Positions 16,041-20,349 of a DNA stretch of 64,000 nucleotides are shown here, piece by piece. Positions within the stretch are counted from its first letter, which is position 1. Every line of letters begins with the position of its first letter. The stretch is from Frankiales bacterium (GTDB taxonomy: Bacteria > Actinomycetota > Actinomycetes > Mycobacteriales > Jatrophihabitantaceae): the NCBI GenBank assembly GCA_025966315.1, contig JAOPUZ010000044.1, positions 62,001 to 126,000 on the forward strand, given 5' to 3'. A model generated the notes under the pieces. It was not told where the DNA came from, searched no databases, and worked only from the letters and a program-made list of their open reading frames with translations. A program made the position numbers and the translations under genes.

Positions 16041-16050
16041 AGGAGGGGGT
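16041..16050 (+). promoter_or_regulatory. Very strong ribosome-binding site of the peptide gene
   Basis: AGGAGGGGGT ends seven bases before the ATG at 16058 and is almost fully complementary to the 16S 3' end. It is the strongest such site in the window, as expected for a highly made precursor peptide. No convincing -35/-10 pair was found in 15928-16040. Confidence 0.75.
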
Positions 16051-16057
16051 GACACTC

Positions 16058-16147
16058 ATGAAGAAGATCATCGTTCGCAAGGCCGGCACGGTACGACTGA
16101 CCGCGCGCTGCAGCAACTACTGCTACGGAAACTGTTGTTGCCTCTGA
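16058..16147 (+). CDS. Cys-rich 29-residue candidate RiPP precursor peptide
   Basis: A 29-codon gene: a basic leader-like half (MKKIIVRKAGTVRLTAR) and a C-terminal half with Cys18, Cys22, Cys26, Cys27 and Cys28, two Tyr, two Asn, one Gly and final Leu29. It has no hydrophobic signal peptide, so it would need dedicated processing and export. Evidence that it is real: an excellent ribosome-binding site, a start codon free of competing frames, a following perfect hairpin, and a downstream pair of genes with the look of RiPP machinery (an RRE-like domain fused to a membrane metalloprotease, then a TPR protein). I infer a modified peptide with a core of about 12 residues from Cys18. I cannot assign it to a named RiPP class; the modification is unknown. 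Confidence 0.7.
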   Translation: MKKIIVRKAGTVRLTARCSNYCYGNCCCL

Positions 16148-16171
16148 GCATCGCAGTGGTCGACGGAGCAG

Positions 16172-16201
16172 AGCCCGCACGCGGGCGTCCGCGTGCGGGC
16201 T
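16172..16201 (+). terminator. Perfect 13-bp hairpin after the peptide gene
   Basis: agcccgcacgcgg and its exact complement flank a 4-base loop (gcgt), 24 bases after the peptide stop and 39 bases before the next ATG. There is no U-run, so it would act as an attenuator or mRNA stabiliser, giving more peptide than enzyme message. This layout is common after RiPP precursor genes. Confidence 0.75.
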
Positions 16202-16240
16202 GGTAGCCGGCAAGCCGGCAGATCGATGGGTTGAAGCGCT

Positions 16241-17533
16241 ATGCCGAACGAACCTGCCCGCCCGCCCCAATCGTCGATGCTGTCGGTGCGCTTGCACACG
16301 TTGACATTCCTGCCCGAGGACGAGGGTGTCATGGTCGGATGTACCGACACCAACAGCTACGCGCTTTTCCCACCCGATGGCGTTGCTCTGATCCAGCAGC
16401 TCGCGAACGGCGTAAGCCCCGGGGCGGCGAGTGACTGGTACCAGCGCACGTACGGCGAACCGGTCGACATCGACGACTTCGTGCAGACGCTGGCCGAGCT
16501 GGACTTTATCGACGATGGCGACGCCGACGCTGATCCGCCGCCCGTCCGCTGGCAAGGCCTCGGCCGAGCCGTGTTCTCGCCGGTGGCGTGGGTCGGCTAC
16601 GCCCTGCTGATCGGTGCGGCGATCCTGGTCTGCACCGCTCAGCCAGCTCTGCTCCCGCATCAAGACCATGCGTTCTTTTCTCGCTACCTGTTGGTGATCG
16701 AACTTACCGTTGCGTTCGGGCAACTGCCGTTGATCCTTATCCACGAATGCTTCCACGTGCTGGCCGCCCGCCGGCTCGGACTGCGGGCCCGGATACGTAT
16801 CGGTTATCGGTTGTACTTCGTCGTCTTCGAAACGGTCATGGACGGCCTCGTGATCGTGCCGCGGCGGCGTCGCTATCTGCCGATGCTGGCCGGGATGCTG
16901 GCCGATCTACTGCTGGCGTGTCTGCTCACGATCGTCGCTTGGGCTACCCGCGACGGCGGCCGGACCACCCTGACCTCAGGGGTCTGCCTCGCGCTGGCCC
17001 TGACCACTTTGATCCGACTGGCTATGGAGTTCTTCCTCTTCCTGCGTACCGACGTCTATTACCTGGCCGCCACGCTGAGCGGTTGCGTGGACCTGCACAC
17101 CACCACCCGGGAGATCGTCCACAACTGGCTGTGGCGCCAGCTCGGTCGTCCTGATCGAATGACCGACCCGGCGCGTTGGCATCCCAACGACGTACGAGCG
17201 GCCCGGTGGTACGCACCGCTCTACCTGCTCGGTTACGCGGTCGCAATCACCTTGCTGGCCACGGTGTTGCTACCGATCAGTTGGCGTTTTCTGCACACCT
17301 CAGTCAGTGCGGCGTTGGGCCACAACCTGTCCTCGGCGCGCTTCTGGGACGCGGCCGGACTGCTGGCGCTGAACACCGCTCAGCCTGCCTTCGCCGGCCT
17401 GCTCAAGGTGCGCGACCTGGTCGGCGGGCGTCGAGCTGACCGAGCCGCCGCCGTTCGTCGTGAACAGGCCCGTCGGAATCACGTCCGTAGTGAGCACGCC
17501 CATCCGCCGTTGTTACCGACCGAGGTGAAATGA
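16241..17533 (+). CDS. Membrane M50-like zinc protease with RRE-like N-terminus
   Basis: A 430-residue protein. Residues about 15-95 look like a PqqD-like RiPP recognition element: a short beta-hairpin region, then Y-A-L-F-P-P-D-G, a helix, and VDIDDFVQTLAELDFI. Residues 110-260 and 320-400 hold about six to eight membrane helices. The first pair carries the metalloprotease motif His168-Glu169-Cys-Phe-His172, and VMDGLVIVPRRRR supplies Asp201 as a plausible third zinc ligand before the AGMLADLLLA helix, as in the family annotated as putative peptide zinc metalloproteases. I infer that it binds the leader of the 29-residue peptide and cuts and/or exports it at the membrane. Its stop overlaps the next gene (ATGA). 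Confidence 0.82.
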   Translation: MPNEPARPPQSSMLSVRLHTLTFLPEDEGVMVGCTDTNSYALFPPDGVALIQQLANGVSPGAASDWYQRTYGEPVDIDDFVQTLAELDFIDDGDADADPPPVRWQGLGRAVFSPVAWVGYALLIGAAILVCTAQPALLPHQDHAFFSRYLLVIELTVAFGQLPLILIHECFHVLAARRLGLRARIRIGYRLYFVVFETVMDGLVIVPRRRRYLPMLAGMLADLLLACLLTIVAWATRDGGRTTLTSGVCLALALTTLIRLAMEFFLFLRTDVYYLAATLSGCVDLHTTTREIVHNWLWRQLGRPDRMTDPARWHPNDVRAARWYAPLYLLGYAVAITLLATVLLPISWRFLHTSVSAALGHNLSSARFWDAAGLLALNTAQPAFAGLLKVRDLVGGRRADRAAAVRREQARRNHVRSEHAHPPLLPTEVK

Positions 17534-19482
17534 TGATCGAGAAAGAGGTTATCTGGCAAGGGCGACATGTGTCGCTCGTCGATGAGTCCGAGCTTCGGGG
17601 TTGGGTCGGCCTGCACGGCGCGCCCACCCTTGGACGTCACGACGGTCATGCCCGACTGCGTGGTCCGTTCTCGGCGGCGGGTTCGCTGCTGCGGAAACTG
17701 GCCCCGGCAATCATCGCGGCCCGGCCGGACCTGGCCCGTCGCTACGACATCGAGATACTGGCCGCCGCGCCGGAAATCGGCACGCTGCTGAGCAATTCCC
17801 GTCCCACGCTGACGTCCCAAGCCGACCCCGCGACCCGCACCCGCTATTACCCGCACAACCGAGCCAACTGGATCGGTAACGGACTGACCGATCTCGTGCT
17901 GGAGTGGGTCGAGGTGCTGGGCGGCAACCAGTCGGTGGTGATCGAACACGTCGACGACCTCGACGCCACCGATGAGAACTGGCTGTCCAGCCTGGTGCGC
18001 CGGGCCGATCCGGCGCGGCTCCGGCTGATCCTGGTCGGGTCTACATCCGTGGTGCGGGCCGGGCAAGCGGCCTCGCCCTCCTCAGGCGGATCGCCCGTTC
18101 CGGACGATGTCGAGCTGGCGCGACGGTTCGTAGCCGGGCACTGTCTGTCCACTGAGCCGGCTGAACGGAGCGCTTACGCGGCGATCGAGGAGAAGTTGCG
18201 TGCGATGCTGCACGACGCCCAGGCGTCGCTGCTGACCCGGGCCAACGAGCAATCCTGGCGACGGGGCGCGCTCGCCTTTCATTGCGAGCATGGCAGCGAT
18301 CCCACCGGGGTCGGCGTCGATGCCCTGTCACAAGCGCAGCAAACCTGTTTGATGGAAGGCTTCTACGACGCGGTCCTGAACCTCGGGGAGCGCATCCGGC
18401 ACCTGCTCAGCTGGTCGGCCGACCCGGAACGCAGCTGGCTGGCCACAGTCAAGATGACCATTGCGCTACAGGCGATGGGACGACCGGACGAGGCGATGGA
18501 ACTGTTCGACGATGCCTGCGCGAACAGCACTATGCCGAGCGTGCACATGCAATCGGCCTACGGGCGCGCCATGATCTACACCCGCTACTACGACGAGCCG
18601 CGCCGGGATCTACGCAAGGCCAAAGGCTTGATCAACACCGCCGTCGCGCTGGCCGGTCTCAGCACGGACGACCAGCGGCGGGCCTACAACCGGACGTTCA
18701 ACGAGAACGGCCTCGCGCTGGTGGACATGCATCTGGGCGAACTCGATGCCGCGGTCGGGCTGATCGAAGCCGGCATCGAGCGGCTGGACCAGGAAGTCGA
18801 GGACGGCCGCTTCCTGTTGCATCGCTCGGTTCTGCGTTACAACCACGCGCAACTGATGAGCAAGCATGCCTCGCTGGAGCAGGCGCTGGCCGAATACAGC
18901 CAGCTGGTGATCGAGGATCCGCATCATCCCGACTACTGGTTCGATCGCGCGGGCCTGTACGAGAAGGCCGGTCGGATACCGGAAGCAATCGCCGACTACA
19001 CCCAGGCCATCCTGGCCGGGCCGCCTTACCCGGAGCCGTATTACAACCGGGCCGAATTGCGGTTGCGTCTCGGCGACGCCGACGGTGCGCTGGCCGATTT
19101 CAGCCGCGTGCTTGACCTCGATCCCGCCTTCGTCGACGCCTGGGTGAACCGGGCCTCGCTGCAGCTGGACGCCGGCAACATCGAAGCAGCGGAGGCGGAC
19201 ATCGCCGCCGGGCTGAGTGAGTCGCCGGACCAGCCCCACCTGCTCTGCCTGCGCGGACTCATCCAGCACGAGCACGGTCGGCTCGGGGCAGCTCAGGAAT
19301 GTTTCGAGGCCGCGCTCGCAGCCGACCCGGAACTGGCCGGTGCGTGGGCCAATCTCGGCGCGGTGCTGTACGAGCAGGGTGATGTCGTCGCCGCGCGGGA
19401 CTGTCTGCAGAGATCGCTGGCCCTGGATGAGAATCCGGACGTCCGGGAGAATCTGGAGTTGACCCTTGCTGCCGCGAGCTGA
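17530..19482 (+). CDS. Degenerate STAND-like/TPR protein of the peptide locus
   Basis: A 650-residue soluble protein. The first ~250 residues are not a standard domain but include SVVIEHVDDLDATDENWL (residues 135-152) followed by LRLILVG, closely resembling the Walker B and sensor strand of STAND/LuxR-type ATPases. I find no Walker A (GxxxxGKT/S), so ATP hydrolysis is doubtful. From about residue 300 to the end there are roughly nine TPR units, clearest in 450-640 (for example PDYWFDRAGLYEKAGRIPEAIADYTQAI). It is coupled by ATGA to the protease gene. TPRs bind peptides or proteins, so it may present the precursor, scaffold a complex, or act as a peptide receptor. The next gene is convergent, six bases away, which closes the locus. 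Confidence 0.8.
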   Translation: MMIEKEVIWQGRHVSLVDESELRGWVGLHGAPTLGRHDGHARLRGPFSAAGSLLRKLAPAIIAARPDLARRYDIEILAAAPEIGTLLSNSRPTLTSQADPATRTRYYPHNRANWIGNGLTDLVLEWVEVLGGNQSVVIEHVDDLDATDENWLSSLVRRADPARLRLILVGSTSVVRAGQAASPSSGGSPVPDDVELARRFVAGHCLSTEPAERSAYAAIEEKLRAMLHDAQASLLTRANEQSWRRGALAFHCEHGSDPTGVGVDALSQAQQTCLMEGFYDAVLNLGERIRHLLSWSADPERSWLATVKMTIALQAMGRPDEAMELFDDACANSTMPSVHMQSAYGRAMIYTRYYDEPRRDLRKAKGLINTAVALAGLSTDDQRRAYNRTFNENGLALVDMHLGELDAAVGLIEAGIERLDQEVEDGRFLLHRSVLRYNHAQLMSKHASLEQALAEYSQLVIEDPHHPDYWFDRAGLYEKAGRIPEAIADYTQAILAGPPYPEPYYNRAELRLRLGDADGALADFSRVLDLDPAFVDAWVNRASLQLDAGNIEAAEADIAAGLSESPDQPHLLCLRGLIQHEHGRLGAAQECFEAALAADPELAGAWANLGAVLYEQGDVVAARDCLQRSLALDENPDVRENLELTLAAAS

Positions 19483-19488
19483 CCCGGG

Positions 19489-20349
19489 TCAGGTGCTCGG
19501 GTCGTCGCGCCAGCTGTGCTCGGGTTCGAAGCCGAGCAGGCGCCGTGCCTTGTCGATGGACAGCAGGGTTTCGTTCGGCCCGAACGGGCGTTTCACGGCT
19601 ACCCCGGGGAACACCTCGGCGAGCAGGTCGGCGTTCGGGCGTGACATCACGGTGTCGGCATTGGCGATGATGAAGACATCCGTTCCGACAAAGTCGTATT
19701 CCAGTGATTTGCGGACGGCCTGGCCGCCGTCGCGGGCGTCGATGTACCCCCACAGGTTCCATTTGCGCAGTCGGGCGTCGGCGTCGAAGGACGGGAATCG
19801 CGCGTACTCGTGCTGCTCCATGACGTTGGAGAATCGCAGCCCGATCAGTTTCAGGTCGGGATACCAGCGACAGAGTTGTCGAGCGAGTTCTTCTTCCAAT
19901 GTTTTTACCAGCGAATACGTGGAATTCGGCCGTGGCGGGTAATCCTCGTCCACCGGCACGTAAGGCGGCGGCTCGTCGAACGGCAAGCCCAGCACGGTTT
20001 CGCTGGACGCCCAGACGATATTGCGGATACCGGCGCGGACGGCCGCGGTCATGACGTTGTAGGTGCTGACCATGTTGTTGGCGAAGGTCGCCGCGTTGGT
20101 CGCTAGGCCCGGCGCCGGAATGGCCGCCAGGTGAACAAGGGCGTCGGCCCCATCGTGCCGCCCGTCGATGCCGCCGAAGGCATCCAGCGTTTGCCCGAAG
20201 TCGGTGAAATCGGCTCGGGTGAAAGACGAATCTTCGCGGCCGGCCGGTACTCGATCCAGTCCCGTAACCTGCCAGTCGTGCGCAGCCAGGTCGGCCGTCA
20301 CCGCGCGACCGAGCTTTCCGCTGCTACCGGTTACCACTACCCGAGCCAT
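19489..20349 (-). CDS. NAD-dependent epimerase/dehydratase (extended SDR)
   Basis: A 286-residue extended short-chain dehydrogenase. The nucleotide loop is VTGSSGKLG (residues 6-14). LVHLAAIP follows, and the active site combines the Ser in WASSETV with Tyr-x-x-x-Lys in YSLVK. Family members epimerise, dehydrate or oxidise sugar nucleotides or related compounds; the substrate cannot be read here. It stands alone, convergent with the TPR gene. The metallophosphatase gene lies 57 bases upstream of its start on the same strand, so co-transcription is possible. Confidence 0.88.
   Translation of the reverse strand: MARVVVTGSSGKLGRAVTADLAAHDWQVTGLDRVPAGREDSSFTRADFTDFGQTLDAFGGIDGRHDGADALVHLAAIPAPGLATNAATFANNMVSTYNVMTAAVRAGIRNIVWASSETVLGLPFDEPPPYVPVDEDYPPRPNSTYSLVKTLEEELARQLCRWYPDLKLIGLRFSNVMEQHEYARFPSFDADARLRKWNLWGYIDARDGGQAVRKSLEYDFVGTDVFIIANADTVMSRPNADLLAEVFPGVAVKRPFGPNETLLSIDKARRLLGFEPEHSWRDDPST

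Follow-up and report, generated by a model that had tools for sequence, protein, structure and literature searches.

How is a cysteine-rich peptide of 29 residues processed when its gene is followed by genes for a membrane metalloprotease and a tetratricopeptide repeat (TPR) protein and by none for a usual peptide-modifying enzyme? The question is raised by positions 16058-19482 of the window, by which we mean the whole 64,000-nucleotide stretch of Frankiales bacterium DNA analysed here (GenBank assembly GCA_025966315.1, contig JAOPUZ010000044.1, positions 62,001 to 126,000). A sequence-only reading had proposed an unclassified locus for a ribosomally synthesised and post-translationally modified peptide (RiPP). 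We find the same gene order, with a conserved leader, a protease motif, a predicted RiPP recognition element (RRE) fold and an obligate TPR partner, at about 100 mostly actinobacterial loci, and the three genes appear to represent a hitherto undescribed family that makes peptide products or signals on ribosomes. In our judgement they are probably a minimal cassette of RiPP type for peptide processing: the leader would be bound and cut by the RRE-protease, and the TPR protein would be an obligate partner of the protease or the receptor of the peptide.

The three-gene cassette and its conserved leader

The peptide gene lies on the plus strand, as do all features below unless stated, with its ATG at 16058 and its stop codon ending at 16147, and encodes MKKIIVRKAGTVRLTARCSNYCYGNCCCL, which carries Cys at positions 18, 22, 26, 27 and 28; the Shine-Dalgarno sequence AGGAGG is found at 16041-16046. 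Coordinates and Cys positions are as the sequence-only reading gave them. The peptide divides into a leader-like part, MKKIIVRKAGTVRLT (16058-16102), and a core-like part, ARCSNYCYGNCCCL (16103-16144), the boundary between them being predicted. After the stop codon, 93 nucleotides containing a hairpin with a perfect 13-bp stem (16172-16201) separate the peptide gene from a gene for a 430-residue M50 (site-2 protease-like) membrane metalloprotease (16241-17533), which overlaps at ATGA with a gene for a 650-residue TPR protein (17530-19482). ATGA coupling therefore holds for the M50-TPR pair only and does not extend to the peptide gene with its hairpin spacer.

Searching 399 genomes of the same order, we found an M50 homologue in 52, and the close M50 group comprises 26 loci including the window (39-51% identity over the alignment), with a TPR gene immediately downstream in 26/26. 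Scanning GTDB genome contigs gave 80 named loci, again with a TPR gene at all 80. Altogether 106 loci were collected, upstream sequence was available for 105, and 101 were distinct once 4 duplicates had been removed. At all 101 distinct loci, a short peptide with the leader consensus MKKIxVRKxGxVRLT is encoded upstream of the M50-TPR pair, its stop codon typically 20-200 nt ahead of the M50 gene; at 15 loci that fell outside the leader regular expression, the precursors were identified by eye (N-terminal extensions, GTG starts, deviating leader residues). As a control, the same expression matched 0 of 21,158 short open reading frame (ORF) starts elsewhere in the same DNA. The leader is conserved and the core variable throughout, which bears out both the earlier guess of a leader/core precursor and the expectation that short ORFs would stand ahead of homologous protease/TPR pairs. 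R7, L14 and T15 are invariant across the 94 unique 15-residue leaders compared and are encoded by several synonymous codons, so selection acts on the peptide.

A degenerate leader pattern has exactly two matches in the host genome, one at each of its M50-TPR cassettes, and the reversed control pattern has none. The second complete cassette (L059, G000:C38:24000-40000) encodes the precursor MKTAKQAKKISIRRTGDVRLTSAACACPYHVSA, of the CxCPY core clade. A class-wide DNA leader pattern was dropped as too degenerate, its matches being mostly chance because the reversed control pattern matches as well. Several loci carry 2-7 precursors ahead of a single M50 gene; there are seven tandem precursors at L060, with SAAQPLYxG.C cores, and four at L088.

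Stems of at least 9 bp lie between precursor and M50 gene in 61 of 103 loci, and the window hairpin is probably a processing or attenuation hairpin, which could uncouple the expression levels of precursor and protease. Because a Cys run ends the ORF and the strong 13-bp hairpin follows directly, we also considered that the short ORF might be a poly-Cys regulatory upstream ORF, a Cys-responsive attenuator controlling the M50-TPR genes through the hairpin, as described for poly-Cys attenuator ORFs in mycobacteria (Canestrari et al. 2020, as cited in PMC9031893). Attenuation would not need a leader whose amino acids are kept while its codons vary. The tandem precursors ahead of one M50 gene and the RRE on the downstream protein also speak against it, and the conserved element is the leader, not a poly-Cys run, the majority of cores having one or two Cys at scattered positions; we consider this explanation very improbable.

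Core peptides

The 93 unique cores are mostly 10-25 residues long and variable in sequence, and 92 of them contain both Cys and Tyr. Tyr stands at core position 7 in 62 cores and at positions 6-8 in 85 of the 93, with Cys before or after it. Cys-rich cores characterise a well supported clade (0.995) that includes the window, other examples being ARCSNYCYGNYCC (Lapillicoccus), ARGCYCYCCCCCGAVAMQ (Blastococcus), APPYCYCNCCCAADEAQ (Nocardia) and APAVYCYCSCCCTVQPN (Lentzea); the window core is nearly identical to that of Lapillicoccus L085. One or two scattered Cys are usual over all cores, and outside this clade the number can be as low as one, as in SSACSVYTNPN and TSAAIYATPLCWPV. The Cys-richness emphasised by the sequence-only reading thus describes the window's subclade and does not extend to the family, whose shared core features are one or more Cys and a Tyr that keeps a fixed spacing from the leader. 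This distribution also bears on whether the peptide could bind metal in the manner of a metallothionein: the five Cys of the window peptide and related cores such as CYCYCCCCC in Blastococcus would fit, but Cys-rich cores are confined to the one supported clade, and elsewhere the number falls to a single Cys with the same leader and partners, so that metal binding is disfavoured and hardly credible to us.

An RRE-M50 membrane metalloprotease

The sequence-only reading had noted an RRE-like N-terminus and an HECFH motif in the membrane protein, and both hold up. From profile comparison and structure prediction, the M50 N-terminus is an RRE fold (residues 16-90, 16286-16510). Against the PDB, the M50 family profile matches best two RRE proteins of lasso peptide systems, TbiB1 (E=7e-4) and TfuB1 (0.02). 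In an AlphaFold2 model of residues 15-112 (predicted local distance difference test, pLDDT, of 83), three strands come first and three helices after them. A Foldseek search with this model returned RRE entries first (TfuB1, TbiB1, McbB, ThcOx, CteB, SkfB, PbtF, TigE, MccB and PqqD), with probabilities up to 1.0 and E-values of 6e-3 or weaker.

The HECFH zinc motif lies at residues 168-172 (16742-16756). H168, E169 and H172 of this HExxH motif are invariant in 30 sequences spanning both M50 groups, as is Asp271 in RTDxYY (17051-17053), a likely third zinc ligand. RseP matches the family profile weakly, at the catalytic motif, and the hydrophobic segments of the protein are compatible with a membrane protease.

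The TPR protein

TPR repeats occupy the second half of the TPR protein (residues 437-634, 18838-19431; Pfam TPR_2, E=2.6e-27); Pfam found only TPR families in it, and no helix-turn-helix (HTH) DNA-binding domain was seen. Its front (17530-18429) is modelled by AlphaFold2 with a pLDDT of 88 and gives weak PDB matches in Foldseek, MalT first and AAA+ proteins next. The P-loop is missing in all 26 aligned family members. Since the front resembles MalT and AAA+ proteins only weakly and no member has a P-loop, the protein is, as far as alignment and modelling indicate, best described as a pseudo-STAND TPR protein, in agreement with the degenerate ATPase-like front that had been suspected. When aligned with neighbouring AfsR-like SARPs by hhalign, only the TPR repeats matched, which leaves homology of the NTPase-like front to AfsR unsupported. 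No recognisable enzyme motif was found in the front, where the polar residues T104, R105, R157, R158, H228 and H251 are invariant.

TPR and STAND proteins are typical sensors of small ligands and peptides, and together with the weak top match to MalT this suggests a functional version of the processing cassette in which the peptide, once released, would serve as a pheromone, with the pseudo-STAND TPR protein as a receptor inside the cell that acts on regulators encoded nearby, for instance SARPs. A SARP regulator gene adjoins the cassette at 35 of the 101 loci, and the M50 and TPR sequences co-diverge (r=0.91). Plain co-inheritance also predicts such co-divergence, however, the TPR protein has no DNA-binding domain, no importer is known, and two thirds of the loci, the window among them, have no SARP next to the cassette; signalling is therefore an option that we put forward tentatively.

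The fixed Tyr points to another possibility, that the peptide is a RiPP made by new chemistry, its Tyr and/or Cys being modified by the TPR protein, or by enzymes encoded elsewhere in the genome, before the leader is removed. Eight RRE-M50 loci that lack a TPR gene (L068, L069, L072, L073, L074, L076, L077 and L080) encode precursors of the MKKLxVRKLExVKxSA type with one Cys and no Tyr. The RRE-M50 and VRK-leader module is common to both groups, whereas Tyr and the TPR protein occur together, which hints, without proving it, that the TPR protein recognises the part of the core with the Tyr or acts on it. Additionally, a flavin reductase-like gene (PF01613) directly follows the TPR gene at 28 of the 101 loci (for example L060, L057, L106 and L116), and the invariant polar residues of the TPR front would be in keeping with chemistry there. 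Yet that front has neither a recognisable enzyme motif nor a P-loop, the flavin reductase is missing from most loci and from the window, the link between Tyr and TPR protein is based on few independent clades, and in one relative (L163) the TPR protein is present although the core lacks Tyr, so we regard new chemistry as unlikely. A specific form of it, a RiPP class whose pseudo-STAND TPR protein is itself the maturase or an essential cofactor modifying Tyr and/or Cys before release, seems to us quite improbable; we know of no chemistry on RiPPs by this fold.

Proposed mechanism

The cassette combines a precursor with leader and variable core, a predicted leader-recognising RRE and a predicted co-encoded leader protease, the general features of a RiPP system. 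In the minimal processing cassette that we favour, the M50 protein would use its RRE, placed at the N-terminal end on the cytosolic side, to capture the 15-residue leader of the 29-mer, and the M50 domain would cut at or near the junction of leader and core. This would free a peptide of about 12-14 residues that contains Cys and Tyr and is probably let out across the membrane. The TPR protein, which is co-translated with the protease, may present the substrate, regulate the protease or act as the receptor of the released peptide. A precedent for the M50 step is daptide MpaP, described as an intramembrane peptidase that takes off the leader in an RRE-dependent manner (PMC10036551), and M50 proteases also mature pearlins and epipeptides (PMC10885120).

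Several observations weigh against this interpretation. The M50 protein matches Pfam PF02163 with E=9.6e-5, a score under the gathering cut-off; the loci were chosen by M50 similarity and are phylogenetically related; and the plasmid relative L163, whose leader is related, has a core with neither Cys nor Tyr. Beyond the peptide, M50 and TPR genes nothing is conserved across all loci, neither a modifying enzyme nor an exporter, so that the "post-translationally modified" part of the RiPP name is hypothetical here.

Comparison with known systems

The closest known design is that of daptide MpaP/DapP, which shares an RRE fused N-terminally to an M50 membrane protease, short precursors with a conserved leader and a main distribution in Actinomycetota (PMC10036551). 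RRE-M50 fusions in RiPP clusters are thus already known, which corrects an earlier reading. Daptide precursors have an ELExMEAP leader and a C-terminal Thr, whereas those described here have the MKKIxVRKxGxVRLT leader, Cys/Tyr cores and variable ends; the aminotransferase, iron-dependent alcohol dehydrogenase, DUF-RRE, methyltransferase and ABC transporter of daptide clusters are not conserved here, but the TPR protein is obligate. Genes for the first four of these daptide proteins are also absent among the window neighbours that were scanned.

By profile and by fold, the N-terminal domain of the M50 protein is most similar to the lasso B1 proteins (TbiB1, TfuB1), which work with a transglutaminase-like protease and an asparagine-synthetase-like cyclase. 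In the cassette, an M50 protease carries the RRE as a fusion, and no lasso B2 protease or C cyclase occurs among the scanned window neighbours or the conserved neighbours. The M50 proteases of epipeptide and pearlin systems (EpeP, TglG, TmoG; PMC10885120) likewise mature a small ribosomal peptide at the membrane, but the cassette has no radical SAM enzyme or PEARL ligase, and neither a radical SAM epimerase nor a PEARL ligase was found among the same neighbours.

FxSxx-type systems with AP-ATPase-TPR effectors, proposed to act as signal or toxin, also unite a small peptide, a metallopeptidase and an NTPase-TPR protein in actinobacteria (PMC7159879). They employ a zincin-like metallopeptidase and, in the FxSxx type, a radical SAM/SPASM protein, together with vWA/ternary systems or an active AP-ATPase, in contrast to the RRE-M50 protease and P-loop-less TPR protein alone. 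STAND-TPR proteins of the MalT/AfsR type share the order of NTPase-like domain and TPR repeats, but the TPR protein described here lacks both a P-loop and a DNA-binding domain, and RRNPP-like receptors carry an HTH on the TPR protein, where the front here is STAND/AAA+-like.

The precursor peptide has no match among the Pfam and NCBIfam models, nor has the M50 protein among those of NCBIfam, and an IMG/VR search with the M50 protein gave no match. Our literature search, whose reach largely excluded subscription papers, found no description of the leader strings or the three-gene set; given this limited reach, and since the daptide authors surveyed all RRE families (PMC10036551), a description may exist elsewhere. 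Mining based on marker genes probably misses the cassette, because it has only three genes and none of the usual RiPP enzymes. The family yields about 90 different predicted cores, and its compactness makes it suitable for studying how an RRE guides an intramembrane protease.

Neighbourhoods, distribution and sister systems

A convergent gene closes the locus, as the sequence-only reading had it, and the ORF and Pfam scan shows it to be an SDR/epimerase gene (19489-20349, minus strand). Around the cassette, which adjoins neither a flavin reductase nor a SARP gene, the window encodes a dehydrogenase, an SDR, a hydrolase, a DinB-type polymerase, a thiolase and an acyl-CoA dehydrogenase. None of the neighbouring window genes scanned encodes a RiPP enzyme, and no known RiPP enzyme is conserved across loci, in line with the absence of known RiPP enzymes that the sequence-only reading had reported. 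At L106, L108, L119, L121, L122, L094, L124 and L132, a gene pair for an XRE-type regulator-like protein and an HExxH protein (ImmA/IrrE-like, judged by eye) lies near the cassette.

The family is found in Streptomyces, Kitasatospora, Nocardia, Lentzea, Micromonospora, Streptosporangium, Nonomuraea, Amycolatopsis, Blastococcus and others. One cassette (L098) lies in a Chloroflexota genome, that of Ktedonobacter racemifer, which suggests transfer between phyla. A very close M50-TPR pair (57% identity; L081) occurs on a short contig of a metagenome-assembled genome labelled Deltaproteobacteria; this contig is probably mis-binned and actinobacterial.

No TPR partner accompanies those M50 proteins that are more distant (about 30% identity). 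Seven distant RRE-M50 loci (L066, L067, L070, L071, L075, L078 and L079) adjoin a gene for an E1/ThiF-like protein with an RRE-like front and are possibly a separate undescribed RiPP type; one of them, L075, encodes two precursors, MKLQVRKVEQTRLT... and MKIQVRKVEQTRLT....

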